From: Polystyrenella longa
Lineage (GTDB): Bacteria > Planctomycetota > Planctomycetia > Planctomycetales > Planctomycetaceae
Assembly: GCF_007750395.1 (NCBI RefSeq)
Contig: NZ_CP036281.1
Location: 5,045,001 to 5,109,000 of the forward strand
Direction of reading: 5' to 3'
Length of the DNA stretch: 64,000 bases
The notes under the pieces are model-generated. The model did no database searches and was not told the DNA's origin. It saw nothing but the letters and a program-made list of their open reading frames with translations. Both the position numbers and the translations under genes were made by a program. Positions within the stretch are counted from its first letter, which is position 1, and each line of letters begins with the position of its first letter. Shown one piece after another: positions 40,602 through 64,000 of the stretch.

Positions 40602-42074
40602 TTATTTCTTAGGAATGTATTGCAGCGTATAGTAAGCCGCGTCGTGCAGTAGAGCTTTCCCCGCTTGTGAGCGAATTCCTTTCAAGTGGAATTCGTGAAC
40701 ATGCCCACGTTGAACTTCATCGAGTTTCACGTCGATGCTCAGGTTGTCGCCCGACACGGTAACGTCTTTGATTGTCGGCTTCGTGTGGTCGACTTCGGGG
40801 CTACCGTAGGATGCTTTGTAGATATAGGTATATGTCTCGACGTCGTATTGGTCGATCAGCAGCGCCGAGTCGCCTGAAATGGGCTGCGTGAAGGTAAACC
40901 GAAATCCATCCGGCAGGGCCTTCATCTCCAATACTTCAAATGGGACTTCGCCATTCCACTGCATCCGTTGTAGCGAGAAAGGGGCCGTTCCCACAGAGCC
41001 CCAACCCCGGTTAGTTCCACCGACGAACAGCTTTCCGTCGGTCGAGAATTCCAGTGGTAAGGTTCCCGAGGCGATTCCCTTTCGGAATGGGAAACAAGCT
41101 CCCTGGTAGTGGCCCTCTACTTTTTCCATGTAGCAACGCATGACAGTACTGTCGGACTGATCGCCGACAAACATCTGGCCAGCAAACGGCCCGAATTTTC
41201 CTTTGGTAATGTCACAGGCAATTCCACTGGCCGATTTCCCCATCTTAGCATACGGGAAATAAACTGCGGGCGGTTCCAGTTCGGGAATCAGATTCGCTTC
41301 GACCATCATACGACTTTGGTCTTTGGGTTCGCGGGGTGTTTTTCCCATCTCCTCAGTCGCAAGCTTGTACCATTCATTTCCTCCGGGATGCCCTTGGAAC
41401 GATCCGGGCCGCAACCATTTCAAACTACAGGTCCCATTCCAGGGCCCCTGGTTATCTGTATAAAAAACGTCGCCCTCCAAATTCATTCCCATACCACCGG
41501 GAGAACGAATTCCGCCACAGGTGGGAATCATTTTCCCATCAGGCGTTATCCGAACGCACCATCCCCGGAACGGCGTCGCGCTACTGAATGATCCGGTGAG
41601 GCACAGTGTAATCCAGATGTTGCCTTCTTTGTCAAACTTGGAACCGAAGGCGTATTCGTGATAATCACCCGTGATTCCCCAGCCATCGTTCACTGTTTCA
41701 AACAGGTCCGCTTTGCCATCTCCAGAAGAATCCTTCAACCGGGAGAGTTCGCAGCGCTGGGTCACATACAACCAACCATCCCGAGATGCAAAACCGAGAA
41801 TCTCGTGCAGTCCCTCTGCAAAATGCCTCAACTTGACCTCTTCCGGGTTCTCCGAAAAGGGATTCTCGACGATGTAAATATCGCCTCGACGAGTCCCCAA
41901 CGCGAGTTGTCCCTCTGGCAATAGTTGCAAAGCACCGATCTCCAGCACGCCATATTGCTCGATGGGGAATGTCACGAGAGGATAATAGTCGTCCTCCGTC
42001 AGGTCTTTCTCATCGGCGACAACAATTGAGGGCAGCAATAGGAACATACAGAACAAAGTGAAGAAACGAGTCAT
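40602..42074 (-). CDS. Exported six-bladed beta-propeller protein (sorbosone/glucose dehydrogenase-like)
   Basis: A signal peptide ([20 protein letters not shown]) leads a protein with blade motifs [118 protein letters not shown] and [23 protein letters not shown]. The pattern fits the soluble glucose/sorbosone dehydrogenase-like propellers that planctomycetes export. Catalytic ligands for PQQ could not be confirmed. It lies 93 bases after a multihaem cytochrome gene on the same strand, so the two are probably an operon in which the cytochrome could accept electrons from the propeller. Confidence 0.87.
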
Positions 42075-42167: not shown

Positions 42168-44903
42168 TTACCAGATGTAATCAATCTGCAAACGAGCCAT
42201 CTCTCCTTCAATCAAGAGTGGGACGAGCAATTCCTGTTGATCTTCGACCTTTCTCAAACGGGGAATCGAACTGGACGGAAGATGCAGTTTTAGTTTCAGT
42301 CCATTGCTCAGTTGATACTCATTGCCGCCCAAGTCCTTAATGTCCGCATCGAGAGCCGCGCGGAACCAGAAGCGCTCCAACGGTTTCTTAAAGGTAACTG
42401 TCAGGCTTCGTTCGAAATGCGGATCCGACTCACCAGAGACGGGTCGGAAATGATCCTGCACTTGGAACTGATCTGTGCTGTATAGGAAAATGGGCTGCGA
42501 CTTCTGGTCGAACTGGTATCCACGGAATCGATAGCCTGCATCGCGTGCCGAAATTGTCGGCCAGGGTGTGTCGGCTTTCTCCAGTTGAGCGAACGGTATA
42601 CCCCGTACCAGCGATAGCACGTGGTCTCCCAGCGGTGGCTGAAAACCCTGCCCGCGTCCCGTCCAATGTTTGGAAGCGTCGATGAACCGTCCATGCCAGA
42701 TGAGTGCGGCATCGACTTCGTCAGCATCGAACGCCAGGTTGGCATTTTCCGGGTACCCCACAGCAATACCACGGGGGCTGACTCCTTCGATGAAGTTGCG
42801 ATAAACGATCGGTTTTCCATCGGCAATCAATTCGATCAGGGAAGTCCCAATCCCATCGGGAATGGGAGCCTCGTCCCCGAGACTCAAATAATCCCACATC
42901 GCCTCCACCTGTAGCGGAACACTTCCATCCAGACGATCTGCCAACATGGACTGACCGCCAAAGAAGTATGCAGGCATGCGGGTCCCTTTGCGGTATTTCT
43001 GGGGGTTGATCAGGTATCGATGAAACCAGTCTTTGCGAATTCGCTGAGGAATTCGCAGTAGATCAACCGACTGAATCCCTGTTGCACGCTGTTCACCGAA
43101 GGTATGACATTTTATACAAGCCATGCCTTTCTCACCGACAATATGTCGGCCTTCTCCTTGCAATCGATAATCCGCGATTTGAGTTTCTACCTCTTCGAAC
43201 TCGGTCTTTCGATCGAGCTCAACGAGTGGATCCACAATCATTCCGACGTTGGACATTCCAAACCGGGGCATGCGAGTCGCCATGTAAGATCGTTCGTTCG
43301 CTCCGGAATCAAGCACATGTTTGAGCCATTCGGTATTCAGTTTGTCACCGACACCTGTCAGACCGGGTGGACGGCGTCCTTCGTCTCCCATTTCGGGAAT
43401 GGTCGAAACGAAGAAGGCATCTCGTTCTCCCTCCGGACCGCCGATTTGATTTCGTTCGTGGCAGGCGTAACAATTGAATTGCGTCATCTTAGCGACGATT
43501 AAGGATTCGCCCGTCAACGCTTTGATCGGCTGATTACCGATTATTTCGATCTGTTCGTTCAGCTCAGTGCGTTGCTGTTCCGAAAGATGGAAGTTGGGAA
43601 CTGTCTGCTCCGGGTTTTCGGCCAGGCAACCCCGGCCAGTTCCCAATGATTCAAACGGACGTGAAATGAGTTTGCTAAAAACGAATTCCGAATCCGTTTT
43701 CAATTCGTGGCAATCCGCACATCCTTGCTCCGCGAATATTACTTTCCCTTGAGCTGCCAGTTCGGCATCGACTTCAAATCCTTGCTGTTTTTGCTGAGCA
43801 TCGGGGTCAATAGATGAAATAGAAGCGAGCGGGCGTCGTGAAAGTTCGGGGCCTTCCAATTCGACGTCAAGAGATTCGAAACCGGCCTTCTCGAAATAGT
43901 CGACCTGAAAAGTATGCCAACCGGAAGCCAGTTTGAGTTTCTCCGAACGTGTTCCATGACCATGAATTCCGTCGTAGTCGATCAATTCTTCTCCGTTTAT
44001 GATCAATCGACTTCCATCATCCGAACCAAGAAAGAAGGTGTATTCGCCTTCTTTCTTGATTTGGAAATTCGATTCAAATCGGAAACCAAAGTCATCTTTT
44101 CTTCGTGAAAGTTTAAAGTCGATTTCGGCAGCGACTCCTTTTTCAACAGGTTCCAACTCGTCGAAGTTGGGAAGATTCGACCAACTTCCTTCGTAGTAGG
44201 CGAATCGAAGGTTGGGAATTCCGTCGACGTTTCGAAGCAGATAACTGGCGATTTGATCGGCTTCCGCTTCCGGGAGATTCAGCGCCGGCATACGTCCTGA
44301 GGGTCGGACATGCAATGGATCCTGCAAAAAACGGCTCAGACTGCTGATGGTGTATTTATCTTCAATTTTTCCGAAGGGGACTGCGTGCGGCAGTTCTTTG
44401 GCATCTTCCTCCGGAGACTGGTGGCAGGCCATACATCCGACTTCGTTGAAAAGTTTCTTACCCCGTTCGGCCATCGCCGGGCTAGGGAAACCGGGACGGG
44501 GGCCTTGCCCAGTGGAGGCGAGAAAATGCACCAAAGGTTCAACGAGATCGGTTTCGTCGTCGCTCAAGACATCTGGCATCGTGGTGCCCGGTTTGGATTG
44601 ATGCGGATCTTTCAGGTACTCACGCAAATATTCCGCTCGCACACGATCGCCGACTTCAGACAGGATGGGGGCTTGTTTGGAGAATGAGCTTAGACCTTCC
44701 TGCTGTGCCTTATGACAGGAGAGACAATTCAATTCACCCAGCAGAATACGCCCCCCTTGTTCCGGTTGACGAGTTTCTTCGTTCTGGAATCGCTCATAGC
44801 CCGGAATCACTGGCGAAACGACTTCCGCAGCGGCTACCGAGACGATCGGGATTAAAAAGGAGCAAACGAGAGCCAGAAGACCAGATGGTCGCGAGCGTTG
44901 CAT
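42168..44903 (-). CDS. Exported pentahaem cytochrome c protein with PA14 domain
   Basis: A signal peptide (about residues 8-26) is followed by five CxxCH haem sites: CLSCH (60-64), CMACH (157-161), then CADCH, CYACH and CIKCH further on (roughly 395, 478 and 597). Between the second and third sites lies a PA14 domain (about 230-365, with GEYTFFLGSDDGSRLIINGEELIDYDG) which binds carbohydrates in other proteins. The C-terminal part (about 650-911) is a planctomycete-specific beta domain. Nearby Met residues could serve as sixth ligands. The combination suggests a periplasmic electron carrier held on glycan. The propeller gene 93 bases downstream is a likely partner. The protein is 911 residues. 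Confidence 0.88.
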   Translation of the reverse strand: MQRSRPSGLLALVCSFLIPIVSVAAAEVVSPVIPGYERFQNEETRQPEQGGRILLGELNCLSCHKAQQEGLSSFSKQAPILSEVGDRVRAEYLREYLKDPHQSKPGTTMPDVLSDDETDLVEPLVHFLASTGQGPRPGFPSPAMAERGKKLFNEVGCMACHQSPEEDAKELPHAVPFGKIEDKYTISSLSRFLQDPLHVRPSGRMPALNLPEAEADQIASYLLRNVDGIPNLRFAYYEGSWSNLPNFDELEPVEKGVAAEIDFKLSRRKDDFGFRFESNFQIKKEGEYTFFLGSDDGSRLIINGEELIDYDGIHGHGTRSEKLKLASGWHTFQVDYFEKAGFESLDVELEGPELSRRPLASISSIDPDAQQKQQGFEVDAELAAQGKVIFAEQGCADCHELKTDSEFVFSKLISRPFESLGTGRGCLAENPEQTVPNFHLSEQQRTELNEQIEIIGNQPIKALTGESLIVAKMTQFNCYACHERNQIGGPEGERDAFFVSTIPEMGDEGRRPPGLTGVGDKLNTEWLKHVLDSGANERSYMATRMPRFGMSNVGMIVDPLVELDRKTEFEEVETQIADYRLQGEGRHIVGEKGMACIKCHTFGEQRATGIQSVDLLRIPQRIRKDWFHRYLINPQKYRKGTRMPAYFFGGQSMLADRLDGSVPLQVEAMWDYLSLGDEAPIPDGIGTSLIELIADGKPIVYRNFIEGVSPRGIAVGYPENANLAFDADEVDAALIWHGRFIDASKHWTGRGQGFQPPLGDHVLSLVRGIPFAQLEKADTPWPTISARDAGYRFRGYQFDQKSQPIFLYSTDQFQVQDHFRPVSGESDPHFERSLTVTFKKPLERFWFRAALDADIKDLGGNEYQLSNGLKLKLHLPSSSIPRLRKVEDQQELLVPLLIEGEMARLQIDYIW

Positions 44904-59784: not shown

Positions 59785-62700
59785 CTATTCGACTGTCAGC
59801 ATCCCATTCATGACCATCCAGTGCCCCGGGAAAGTGCAGAGGAAAGGGTAATTACCGGGCGTCTCCGGAGCCCGAAAGAAGATCGACATCTCCTCCTGCG
59901 GAGAAACCACATCCGTGTAAACCAGGACGCGTTCTGATTCCGGGATGTATTGCCGAATAACAGCCTCCGGGTCGGCGATCAACCGATTGGCCATCTCCCC
60001 CACTTCTTTCAGTGCCCCAGGTTCAACGAGAGCCCAGTTGTGTGGGACGACATCCGGATTCACGAGTTTGAGCTCCAACATCTCTCCCGCTTTGGCAGAG
60101 AGGCTGCGCGTTTCATACGACAGATTTTTGCCGGTACGCAACACGATTTGACGAGCGTTCGGAACAGGTTGTTCCCACGGGTTAGTAATCTTCTTTGTCG
60201 AAAGTGTCAGGTCGAACAGAATCGGATGTGCGGCTATCGTCTTCTTCCGAGGTTCGTAGCCAGAAAATTTCGTGAAGGGTTCATCGAGTTGATGCACCGT
60301 CAGAAAGAGGTCGAGTCCATCCGCCGGCTCTTGCGTCTGTTCATTCACGTGCATTCGTAATTGCAATTGGTTCACGGGTTGAAGCTCGGGGATCTCCAGA
60401 AAGAGTAGCTTCTCCTCGGCAAGCACATGGGCGGAGGCGATCTCCAGTACATCGTGCCCTTTGGTTCCGAAGTGGCTCGGGGAGTATTCGGGCGAACCAT
60501 ACGCCTGGCTGTATCGGTAGTTCCAGCACTGAGCTAAATGAGACTTGGTATTTTCGGCAATTTCCCGGTCGATTTCACTCGTAAATTCAATCAGGATTCC
60601 GTTTTCAAAAACATGAAATCGTTTGGGCAAGTTCACAGGTTTATTGGTGTAACGGACTCGCTGAAAACATCCATCCTGTAAGGCATAACATCCCCAACCC
60701 GTCATGCCAGTCACATACAATTGACCATCCAGCGGATGAAACCGACCGCGATGCGCGCCTGATAGAAATTCACCCGGCAACGGGACTATGCCTCCTTGTA
60801 ACTGACCGTTGACTTCATCTCGTAACAATAAAAAGTGCGATCCGGTTCCATAGGAAAAATGAATCATTTCTCCCTCCAGCGGTCCCCACTTCTGGCTGTC
60901 GATATACGTCTGCCCTCCACTTGAGTTATCCAGGCCACGCGGTAGATAGACCAGTGGGAGTGCAGGGGGAACTTCCAGAGGTTGATCGGCGTTAGCCTGT
61001 TTGCGATATCCAAAAAAAGGAACCGGATTCGGTGCTGACTCTGTGGCTGTCTGCTTGCTGTTCACGGCGCAAATCATGGAAGCGGGGGTCCATTCCCCTT
61101 CGGAACAGGGAACGGTTAATAACCCTTCGGGCGTGAGTCCCAGTCCATCCGGATTACGAAAACCGGTCGCGAGCACTTCAACTTGTTCCCCATCAGGCGA
61201 GATGCGAAGTAGTCCTTGATTCCCTGAGGCGGTGTAGAAATTCCCGGCACTATCTCGCTGTAGTCCGCAGATAAAGTCATGCCCGGCATTCGATGTTGTG
61301 TAGGCACTGCTGAAGCATTCGTACTGATCCGCTTCGCCATCGTGGTTGTGGTCGTACAATCGAGTGATCTGGTCACGTCCCTGGACGTACATCGCTCCGT
61401 CATGGACGACCAATCCTAAAGCATGGTGCAGCCCTGACGCGAATCGTTTCCACTTCGCCGTTGTGCCGCCATTCATAAAGCCATCAGCGAGCCAGACGTC
61501 TCCCTGCATCGTGCAAACCAATGCCCGACCATCAGGCAGAAAGGCATGGCCCCCACAGAACAATAGTGCCTTCCACGGATTCTTATACGGTAATTCGATG
61601 TTATCGACGGCATACGGTTCTCCATCGCCGAGTTTGATCTCTGTTTCCAGAATCTGCGGCCATTGAGGTTTCCCCGGTTCGATCAGCGATGCCCAATTAG
61701 ACTTGTTAATCCCGCCCGCGACGACTTGCGTACGCGTGAAGATACCATTAACGACATGCGGAATGTCATACATTTCCACATCGCCAAGACGGTAATGAAA
61801 TACGACGTGCCGACCATGGCGAAAGAAGCCAAGGTATTTAAACGACTTCGTCGGAGGTTGAGACGGCTCTTTGGCTAAAACAGTTCCATCCAGAATCAAC
61901 CCATGCATAAATCCATGTCGAACCGAAGAGAATTTGACAAACCCATCTTTCCAGATAACAGGGTAAGAGAGTGTTTCGGGATTGAAACAGGCGGAGAGCT
62001 CGCCATGTTCACCCAGACGAACACAAATAGCGCGGGAGATGGTTAAGTCCCCATGATGAAAAATTCCCGCCTGAACGGAACCAAGCTCTGTCTCATTCCA
62101 GCGATCGTCGGCCCAGGTTTCTTCTGTTTGGTTTCCCCAGTGGCCGAACTCGCCCCCATCCAACCCCGGATGTCCGGGGATAAGGTGTGGGACTGTCTCC
62201 TGTTGCCTGAAGTGCTCCGCCTCTTTGGCATAGAAGTCATATAACCGATCCCGGTTCATATGCTCCTCCCAGTTCGGCCAGTCCTCGGGGGAGAGCGGTC
62301 CGCGATCGTATTCGAAACTGGCCGGTCCATGAACGTGCAACCGGGCCATTAATAATTCGACCGCATCGAGTGACGCAGCCTGATCTGTACCCAGAGTCGA
62401 GACGAATTGAATCAAGTCGAGTTGTTGTTGGCGCGACATGGCGGAAGTCAGTCCTTCCGGCATGAGTGTACTCCCCGGAATGTGCTCATCGATTTCGTCT
62501 GTCGAAATTGTCGTTGTTTCATCCGAGGCGGGATTCTTCAATACGAATTCGTCTTCAGTTTTAGTTGTTAGATACCCGGAGAGAATTTTCCCTTCATCCG
62601 TGATGATGGAATGCGAAACGTATTCTGGTTTGACATCACGTTTCGGCCAGAAAATCGATTCCACGATTTCATTCGGTTTGCGATCGACACCAATCTTCGT

Positions 62701-64000
62701 CAGATCGGGGCCAATGGTGCCGCCATGTTCTCCCAGTTTATGGCAGGAGATGCAGGCCGACTTCGCTGAAGTAAAAACCTCCAGCCCCCTGGCGGCGTCA
62801 CCTTCTTTTCGCGCTGAGGCGATGTACTCAGACACCACTGCGGGGTCGTATAGTAACTCCACAGGTTTTGCTGCTTCCGGGGAAGCGGGGGATTTGACTG
62901 TTCCTGATATACTGTTCCACACAAGCAATAGATTTTCGTCATCGGGCAATGCGTCTGCTGGTGCTGGTGCTTTATCGCTGGTCCCCTTGATGATTTGAAC
63001 CTGTTGAATTTCACCATTAGTGAAGACTCTTCCTTCGACCAAACGACCAATGCCAAACCCACCTGGGACCGGTGCCTGATTCATAGATTTGACGGGTTGA
63101 TCTACCACCTGCTTACCATCGATGTACAACCGGACCCGGTTGGGTTCAAATTGCATGGCGATTTCATGCGACTTGCTATCGCAGATCATGGTCTCACTAT
63201 GAACATGATCGGGAGCATAACCAGGTAGATAAACAGACAGTTTGCCACTTTCGGGTTGCGTGAACAATTCCCAGTGCGTACCCGATCGTTTCTCTTCGTT
63301 TGCAAGGAGAATCTGATATCCATTGCTCGGAGCAAGCTGAGCCTGACATGCTATCGTCAGTGGTAAAGTGCGATAAGCGACATTCCCCTTGAGGACATGA
63401 CCTGCGTTCGCAGGGGGAGCAGTTGATGTCGTTTTTGTGGCGGGCTTTTTCCAGGAACGGTATTTTGGCGGAACTCCGGCCGGGTTCCCCTTCAACTGAT
63501 TCATCAACCAGTCGAGACCCTCCAGATTATCTTGTAGTCGCAGACGCGTATCCACCGAAGTATCGTGATCGAGAATTCCAACGGGACCTTGCCACCCACT
63601 TTGGGCGATGGTGGTGAGCAATTGCAGGTCAAGTTCTCCTGCACCAAGTGGCACAATCTTTTGGCCCTGTTGATCACCACCAGGCACCATTCCATTCAGA
63701 TTGAGCGTCAATAAATAAGGTTTCATCTTCTGCAATAGCGATTCAAATCGGTCGACGTGCGCATGTCCATGATGCAGGTTGTACACAATACCGACGTTGT
63801 CGAGATTCAATTCCTCAATGATTTCGATTTGATTTTCAGGTTCACCAAACCAACCACCGTGGTTGTACAAAGCGACCTGACAGCCTGCTTCGGCGGCGGC
63901 CTCGGCAATGGGACGCAAACGTTCGGCTTCCGTTTGAACACGTTGCCTTTGCTCTGCTGCAGAATTCGTCGGTGCTCCACCACCGGTAATCCACAGTTGC
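59785..64000 (-). CDS. Multidomain TIM barrel / LamG / cytochrome c / beta-propeller / azurin protein (5' end outside window)
   Basis: The frame is open to the window end, so the start and probably the export signal lie beyond. Numbering the visible codon at 63918 as 1, the order is as follows. A sugar-isomerase-like TIM barrel covers up to about 148 (VALYNHGGWFGEP, GIVYNLHHGHAHVDRF). A LamG-like 3-keto-disaccharide hydrolase domain covers about 175-312. A haem-binding domain has CISCH at 389-393. A planctomycete domain (about 535-750) and a sorbosone-dehydrogenase-like propeller (about 780-1160) follow. The C-terminus is an azurin-like cupredoxin with HNW, Cys1361, His1366 and Met1370 (CTFPGHWMVM). 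The combination suggests a periplasmic sugar oxidase or lyase passing electrons through haem to copper. Visible length exceeds 1,400 residues. Confidence 0.88.
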   Translation of the reverse strand, partial: QLWITGGGAPTNSAAEQRQRVQTEAERLRPIAEAAAEAGCQVALYNHGGWFGEPENQIEIIEELNLDNVGIVYNLHHGHAHVDRFESLLQKMKPYLLTLNLNGMVPGGDQQGQKIVPLGAGELDLQLLTTIAQSGWQGPVGILDHDTSVDTRLRLQDNLEGLDWLMNQLKGNPAGVPPKYRSWKKPATKTTSTAPPANAGHVLKGNVAYRTLPLTIACQAQLAPSNGYQILLANEEKRSGTHWELFTQPESGKLSVYLPGYAPDHVHSETMICDSKSHEIAMQFEPNRVRLYIDGKQVVDQPVKSMNQAPVPGGFGIGRLVEGRVFTNGEIQQVQIIKGTSDKAPAPADALPDDENLLLVWNSISGTVKSPASPEAAKPVELLYDPAVVSEYIASARKEGDAARGLEVFTSAKSACISCHKLGEHGGTIGPDLTKIGVDRKPNEIVESIFWPKRDVKPEYVSHSIITDEGKILSGYLTTKTEDEFVLKNPASDETTTISTDEIDEHIPGSTLMPEGLTSAMSRQQQLDLIQFVSTLGTDQAASLDAVELLMARLHVHGPASFEYDRGPLSPEDWPNWEEHMNRDRLYDFYAKEAEHFRQQETVPHLIPGHPGLDGGEFGHWGNQTEETWADDRWNETELGSVQAGIFHHGDLTISRAICVRLGEHGELSACFNPETLSYPVIWKDGFVKFSSVRHGFMHGLILDGTVLAKEPSQPPTKSFKYLGFFRHGRHVVFHYRLGDVEMYDIPHVVNGIFTRTQVVAGGINKSNWASLIEPGKPQWPQILETEIKLGDGEPYAVDNIELPYKNPWKALLFCGGHAFLPDGRALVCTMQGDVWLADGFMNGGTTAKWKRFASGLHHALGLVVHDGAMYVQGRDQITRLYDHNHDGEADQYECFSSAYTTSNAGHDFICGLQRDSAGNFYTASGNQGLLRISPDGEQVEVLATGFRNPDGLGLTPEGLLTVPCSEGEWTPASMICAVNSKQTATESAPNPVPFFGYRKQANADQPLEVPPALPLVYLPRGLDNSSGGQTYIDSQKWGPLEGEMIHFSYGTGSHFLLLRDEVNGQLQGGIVPLPGEFLSGAHRGRFHPLDGQLYVTGMTGWGCYALQDGCFQRVRYTNKPVNLPKRFHVFENGILIEFTSEIDREIAENTKSHLAQCWNYRYSQAYGSPEYSPSHFGTKGHDVLEIASAHVLAEEKLLFLEIPELQPVNQLQLRMHVNEQTQEPADGLDLFLTVHQLDEPFTKFSGYEPRKKTIAAHPILFDLTLSTKKITNPWEQPVPNARQIVLRTGKNLSYETRSLSAKAGEMLELKLVNPDVVPHNWALVEPGALKEVGEMANRLIADPEAVIRQYIPESERVLVYTDVVSPQEEMSIFFRAPETPGNYPFLCTFPGHWMVMNGMLTVE

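Follow-up and report, generated by a model that had tools for sequence, protein, structure and literature searches.

PVC-type heme-binding CxxCH proteins, which combine TIGR02604 and TIGR02603 and are exemplified by Lac161_ORF7 (PMC5342196; this and the other papers cited here are drawn on through excerpts of their text), are among the described proteins most like the one examined here, the product of a gene at the edge of a 64,000-nucleotide stretch of the Polystyrenella longa genome. This stretch, referred to as the window, corresponds to G000:C1:5045001-5109000 in a genome of 6.1 Mb on a single contig (G and L numbers are our labels for genomes and loci). Comparison of its first 20 kb with a plasmid collection gave no match. 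The encoded fusion protein shares with the PVC-type proteins the propeller, the TIGR02603 domain and a planctomycete and verrucomicrobial spread, but it adds a TIM barrel, a LamG domain, DUF6797 and a cupredoxin, its heme domain precedes the propeller and its TIGR02604 score is far under the cut-off. We conclude that it belongs to a real, conserved and modular family of redox fusions, and we place this family among the planctomycete heme-propeller proteins, as a variant of them and not as a kind of its own.

Several other systems resemble parts of the chain. The C-terminal domain of the diheme cytochrome Kustd1711 (7zs0; PMC11791136) aligns with the heme domain, but the fusion has one heme within a large enzyme-like chain. 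Auracyanin and azurin have the same His-Cys-His-Met ligands and fold as the cupredoxin, which is here the C-terminal domain of a chain of 1526 amino acids (aa). Type II quinohemoprotein alcohol dehydrogenases (1kv9) likewise join a propeller oxidoreductase and a cytochrome c in one chain, and homologues of them at two of our loci, L090 and L093, carry a TIM-LamG front; the propeller of the fusion differs from theirs, being linked to DUF6797 and having no PF01011 match. The PF01011 propeller is eight-bladed. Nitrous oxide reductase likewise has a propeller followed by a C-terminal cupredoxin, but its CuA loop has two Cys whereas the loop of the fusion has one. Finally, the 3-keto-glycoside beta-eliminases AtOGE and CGE (PMC10628242) are TIM-barrel metalloenzymes acting after sugar oxidation, while the TIM barrel of the fusion is without the canonical metal positions, a comparison made through templates and not by direct alignment with AtOGE. 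Among the matches listed from open-licence papers, no title or abstract opening described the architecture of the fusion, and a search for DUF6797 returned no papers.

Architecture of the fusion protein

The gene lies on the minus strand, as do all its features given below, and occupies 59785..64000 of the window, which holds its 3' 92%. An earlier note on the window, made from its sequence, had proposed a very large single-frame fusion cut by the window edge. Reading the missing 5' part in the genome (L002:1786-6366) placed the ATG at window-equivalent position 64365, 365 bases beyond the edge, and gave an intact single frame of 1526 codons with its stop side at 59785. The N-terminus, encoded outside the window, resembles a Sec signal peptide when read by eye. 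The domains follow in the order xylose-isomerase-like TIM barrel, LamG, TIGR02603 c-type heme domain, an unnamed conserved segment that we call MID, DUF6797, beta-propeller and type-1 copper cupredoxin. The domain list of the earlier note thus stood for the TIM barrel, the LamG fold, the heme domain, the propeller and the cupredoxin; it had overlooked DUF6797, and its label of hydrolase for the LamG domain did not hold. Promoter and terminator scans of the gene gave no signal exceeding shuffled sequences.

In order to compare the protein with its relatives, public genomes were scanned, one per species; relatives were encoded in 251 stretches, and the best 80 of these were retained. The alignment comprises the query and 58 homologous open reading frames with this architecture or most of it; the other 22 of the 80 loci were excluded, three as broken (L058, L059, L070) and 19 as having another architecture (L075-L093). 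A subset of 37 rows, A1, was selected for having the heme domain. Many of the 80 best loci show the same domain order in one frame. The order recurs in many Planctomycetota, while the fusions of Verrucomicrobiota mostly go without the heme domain.

Heme and copper centres

The c-type heme domain (~aa 522-657; 62395..62802) scores 85.2 bits against TIGR02603, above the cut-off of 68.15, and is a homologue of the C-terminal domain of the solved Kustd1711 (E 2.1e-10). Its CISCH heme-attachment motif (aa 538-542; 62740..62754) is conserved at C538, C541 and H542 in 51/51 rows with letters at each position. M635 (62461..62463), invariant in the 37 rows of A1, stands opposite M292 of Kustd1711 and is the predicted axial heme ligand. 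For Kustd1711, an M292H mutant and heme potentials near +350 mV are described (PMC11791136), and it is our own reading of the excerpt that M292 is an axial ligand there. Downstream of the heme domain, MID (aa 661-790; 61996..62385) has the invariant residues G741, H742 and G744, and DUF6797 (PF20601; aa 792-867; 61765..61992) scores 40.1 bits against a gathering score of 24.9. Both are scarcely covered by the fold matches listed for an AlphaFold2 model of the core (aa 510-1526; pLDDT 85.5, pTM 0.81).

The cupredoxin (~aa 1403-1526; 59788..60159) is auracyanin- or azurin-like by profile and structure matches. Its first His ligand, H1442 (60040..60042), is kept in 49/49 rows, and C1510, H1515 and M1519 of the ligand loop CTFPGHWMVM (59809..59838) in 48/48 rows each. 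The sequence matches auracyanin A with E 1.2e-10, and the modelled domain superposes on it with Z 18.6 and a root-mean-square deviation (rmsd) of 1.5 over 118 residues, while the score against the azurin equivalog TIGR02695 stays under its cut-off (35.4 vs 105.1 bits). With His-Cys-His-Met ligands on a cupredoxin fold, the domain has the features of a type-1 blue copper site, and copper binding is predicted from sequence and model. Nitrous oxide reductase gave the top Foldseek rows and was set aside, the rmsd being 23-29 Å and the loop having one Cys. The earlier note had made its proposal depend on conservation of the copper and heme ligands; both sets are kept in the homologues, although the Verrucomicrobiota fusions that were read have no heme.

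Beta-propeller

The propeller (~aa 915-1240; 60646..61623) carries the invariant residues H1029, R1070, N1071, E1089, G1090 and W1092. In sequence it matches DUF7133 and TIGR02604, both below cut-off, the latter partially and at 29.3 vs 122.2 bits, so that it falls outside TIGR02604. In structure, the modelled propeller resembles first designed and NHL propellers and after them sugar dehydrogenases, among which the soluble ones that use pyrroloquinoline quinone (PQQ) are six-bladed. Z is 18.1 for both 3a9g, a PQQ sugar dehydrogenase, and 2ism, a putative glucose dehydrogenase, 17.2 for 3das and 16.5 for 2g8s.

TIM barrel and LamG domain

The TIM barrel (~aa 33-300; 63466..64000 in the window and on to 64269, the part before ~aa 123 lying beyond the window) scores 42.6 bits against PF01261, above the gathering score of 31.1. 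N168, H169, E177, N196, H198, H199, H201, N222, N224 and H267 are invariant in it (59/59 each). An AlphaFold2 model of the TIM-LamG part of the homologue L015 (pLDDT 92.4, pTM 0.70) supplies the fold and resembles xylose-isomerase-like enzymes at Z ~20; YcjR is among the closest with Z 20.1, rows within 1 Z being tied. Three standalone TIM proteins were compared with NCBIfam, and none matched a named family.

The barrel was then examined for the quartet of ligands E/H-D-H-E on strands 5-8, which we take to be the metal-ligand residues of the epimerase templates. By sequence alignment, with HMMER against 3wqo and with hhalign against 14 paralogues of the same genome (probability 98%, strand 6 gapped), the four positions correspond to Y167, N196, N222 and L265, of which the first three are kept in 59/59 rows and L265 in 55/59. 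A classical metal site is hence not what these positions hold, and a canonical metal-dependent epimerase or 3-keto-glycoside eliminase seems excluded for this barrel by the alignment; the ligands of AtOGE were taken from its publication (PMC10628242). In AtOGE the catalytic His134 stands two residues after the metal ligand His132 (PMC10628242), and H169 stands two residues after Y167, the position aligned with the first metal ligand. An equivalence of H169 and His134 may be regarded as a lead, resting on alignment and spacing and not on superposition.

The LamG, or concanavalin-A-like, domain (~aa 325-470; 62956..63393) is optional in the family. It scores 27.3 bits against PF13385 in the query, just below the cut-off of 27.6, and 35.8 in L015, and the LamG part of a TIM-LamG profile matches neurexin, laminin and thrombospondin. 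Neither hydrolase families nor DUF1080 (PF06439) were among the matches at E <= 1. The domain is a dispensable lectin-like fold without support for a hydrolase role, and with the canonical metal quartet missing from the barrel in the alignments, the claim of two sugar-acting domains in one chain is weakened.

Distribution and module exchange

At E <= 1e-100, and counting partial places such as propeller-only and TIM-only ones, matches were found in 100/150 genomes of the query's own family, 47/392 of its phylum and 12/288 of the phylum to which the genome G521, carrying the Verrucomicrobiales locus L057, belongs. By itself, at E <= 1e-50, the TIM subfamily is present in 217/397 genomes of the class and 18/387 of G521's phylum. 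Within the query's genus two of three genomes match: G018 has the gene, without LamG and in a frame ending at a contig end, and G065, 65% complete, gave no match. The query's genome holds 24 further places that match its heme or propeller region.

Altogether 108 distinct core sequences were compared, several of which end at contig ends and inflate the counts without copper. The complete pattern of TIM, LamG, heme, propeller and copper was found in 25 of them, and the same pattern without LamG in 38; 11 have TIM, LamG, propeller and copper without heme, and 17 show other patterns. On a quick tree, in which 28/105 inner branches have support below 80, LamG changed ~20 times, TIM 10, the N-terminal heme domain 2 and the copper domain 7 times. 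Seven fusions from G521's phylum (L200-L203, L205-L207) have the cupredoxin and no CxxCH, while L208, L075 and L076 lack a cupredoxin match, L208 having a CxxCH and the other two five each. The window itself contains an adjacent same-strand pair of genes, one with five CxxCH by eye (42168-44903, 911 aa) and one encoding a propeller paralogue (40602-42074, 490 aa), each of which corresponds to one half of the 2071-aa L076 frame (E 2e-19 and 1e-32).

Furthermore, the TIM-LamG front was found joined to another redox unit. At L090:6340-10017 and L093:6944-10594 it precedes a PF01011 dehydrogenase (E 3.8e-149 and 4.3e-147) with a cytochrome c, and the L090 dehydrogenase, the one tested, is nearest in the PDB to 1kv9, a type II quinohemoprotein alcohol dehydrogenase (E 7.2e-37). 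We consider this front on a quinohemoprotein-type dehydrogenase to be the best clue to function.

The TIM barrel also occurs as a standalone gene. Eight proteins encoded beside such genes were scanned, and none of those at L219 (WD40), L229 (VWA), L225 (APH) and L235 (no family) pointed to sugars. Near the standalone TIM gene of L219, on the same strand, lies an SMP-30/gluconolactonase-like gene (L219:4086-5087). At L239:808-9968 a standalone TIM gene is part of a same-strand run whose other products are a beta-helix protein, one that matches the GH38N and PL4 domain III models and one that contains a hydrazine synthase alpha middle domain.

Split relatives and a conserved A9 run

In the genus g4 the TIM barrel and the redox core lie in two different frames in 3/3 species examined. 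At the junction of the two, each locus has an A9 run, read as T9 on the plus strand, where the frame shifts by -1 (L115:3489-3497, L116:4545-4553 and L132:2818-2826). No other A or T run of at least 8 occurs in the sequence fetched for each locus (4.3 to 6.0 kb and, for the surroundings of one, 18 kb), and the A9 run persists between the g4 loci, whose DNA is 74-87% identical. The first ATG, GTG or TTG of the core comes at codon 71-81, beyond the CxxCH at codon 41, and by eye the signal-like N-terminus is on the TIM frame and not on the core frame. On the quick tree the split loci are placed among fused relatives.

Slippage at an A9 run is known at the level of transcription in Thermus dnaX (PMC3711429). 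Programmed slippage is the likeliest reading for g4, in which it would produce the fusion from the two frames. Phase variation at the A9 run is possible, and an identical sequencing error in three species is unlikely. No notable RNA structure that could stimulate frameshifting was found at the three runs (z -0.31, -0.67 and -1.29), which leans towards transcriptional rather than ribosomal slippage. Other broken frames were considered and rejected as slippage, since L058 and L059 are interrupted by N gaps, and L070 and L112 each show an isolated change of frame where no homopolymer run is present.

Two further loci have the TIM barrel and the core apart. In L250 they are separate adjacent genes on the same strand, the core having, by eye, a signal-like start of its own. 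At L252:6326-6332, in DNA of 70% GC, the frame changes at a C7 run that separates TIM from the heme domain, while relatives have long TIM frames; either an error of sequencing or another instance of slippage could explain this.

Discussion

The earlier note had suggested substrate binding, oxidation and electron transfer within a single protein, and, apart from a hydrolytic LamG, this is the reading that the evidence supports best. We favour, by a narrow balance of belief over doubt, a secreted (periplasmic or cell-surface) multidomain oxidoreductase of dehydrogenase type acting on a carbohydrate or polyol. The invariant redox ligands, the exchange of redox modules and the occurrence of the TIM-LamG front on a dehydrogenase all point to oxidation and electron transfer. 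The matches of the heme domain to Kustd1711, of the cupredoxin to auracyanin A and of the propeller to sugar dehydrogenases also speak for it, as do the glucose that purified Lac161_ORF7 frees from lactose and the gluconolactonase-like gene near the standalone TIM gene of L219. Moreover, in some cases the TIM barrel and the core stay linked when unfused, as neighbours in L250 and in two frames at the A9 run in three species, and several genomes whose core lacks TIM carry a TIM gene at another place. In the mechanism that we infer, in which secretion is taken from a signal read by eye and the substrate, the cofactor, the order of the electron carriers and the TIM chemistry are likewise inferred, the beta-propeller, probably quinoprotein- or metal-dependent, would oxidise the carbohydrate or polyol, and the c-type heme, the blue-copper domain or both would take up the electrons and deliver them to the respiratory chain. 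The TIM barrel would bind the substrate or the oxidised product or transform it by isomerisation, epimerisation or elimination, and LamG would assist binding.

A number of observations weigh against this favoured oxidoreductase. In structure the propeller comes closest to designed and NHL-type ones, which with Z up to 19.7 rank ahead of the dehydrogenases, and PF07995, the family of PQQ soluble sugar dehydrogenases, and PF01011 are absent from the query matches at E <= 1. Alignment of the propeller with 19 GSDH-type domains by hhalign gave a probability of 5.6% (E 0.0068) and phmmer against PDB chains gave none at E <= 10, so that GSDH membership was rejected. L090 and L093 also match the acido-empty-quinoprotein model TIGR04528 at 213 and 210 bits, under the cut-off of 650, which makes PQQ use conjectural even there. 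The TIM barrel could be binding-only, its metal-ligand positions appearing lost in the alignment. Nor is it always in the frame of the core: 17/108 core sequences have heme, propeller and copper without it. In five of these the TIM barrel is next door (the three split g4 loci together with L250 and L252). Of the genomes whose core lacks TIM, at least 7 (G060, G062, G086, G335, G451, G457, G502) carry a TIM gene at another place, but G029 and G046 have no TIM match. Conversely, 32/34 standalone TIM loci, which were selected for a short frame, are without a core in the fetched 8-12 kb. The heme is missing from the fusions read in G521's phylum, and by eye, the frames of L002 show no obvious sugar operon or sugar-gene neighbours around the fusion gene. 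Lastly, Lac161_ORF7 (TIGR02604, HEAT, TIGR02603), the one assayed relative found in the wider heme-propeller family and likened to the fusion by domain content, released glucose from lactose as a purified protein with a Km of 1.8 mM, an activity reported as hydrolysis and not oxidation (PMC5342196).

A sharper version of the favoured reading, which we think rather unlikely, is oxidative glycoside cleavage, in which the propeller would make a keto-glycoside, a divergent TIM barrel similar to the 3-keto-glycoside beta-eliminases or YcjR would cleave or epimerise it, and heme and blue copper would accept the electrons. YcjR, a 3-keto-glucoside 4-epimerase, being among the tied closest folds of the barrel, the spacing of H169 and the glucose freed by Lac161_ORF7 are consistent with it, and LacABC together with DUF1080 offers a precedent for oxidation followed by cleavage (PMC9007349). 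However, AtOGE requires Mn2+ (PMC10628242) while the metal-ligand positions seem lost here, DUF1080 is not among the query matches, and the keto-sugar chemistry is a proposal, with H169 likened to His134 by alignment and spacing.

It is equally doubtful that TIM and LamG form nothing more than a binding or docking front, with the propeller as a non-catalytic scaffold or binding domain and the heme and copper as relays or sensors for partners. The loss of the metal-ligand positions, the designed and NHL propellers as best matches and the lability of LamG and TIM on the quick tree would all fit such a passive role, but so many invariant polar residues in 59/59 rows are unusual for a passive domain, and the same front is found on a quinohemoprotein-type dehydrogenase.

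The boldest form of the favoured oxidoreductase, to which we give little credence as a whole, would be a self-wired secreted megaenzyme oxidising carbohydrates, in which a quinoprotein-like propeller would work together with a TIM barrel that has a His cluster instead of the usual metal site, and the heme and blue copper of the same chain would carry the electrons away, slippage at the A9 run setting the ratio of TIM to full enzyme in g4. A joining of separate genes by assembly or annotation error, the refutation envisaged in the earlier note, could draw on a few broken loci (L058 and L059, L070 and L112) but is practically ruled out by the same domain order recurring in unbroken frames across many independent genomes, the single-contig G038, G066 and G076 among them, a recurrence found by the very search of other genomes that the earlier note had proposed.

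Planctomycetes and Verrucomicrobia are rich in heme-propeller and cytochrome proteins without an assigned function, and according to a verrucomicrobial genome study the functions of its planctomycete-specific cytochromes are not known at all (PMC5615132). The fusion family ties a heme-propeller protein to a sugar-enzyme fold, to a blue-copper exit and, in relatives, to a quinohemoprotein-type dehydrogenase, and thereby points to concrete substrates and assays. In addition, the A9 split in g4 provides a testable case of recoding that would join a barrel domain to a redox core.

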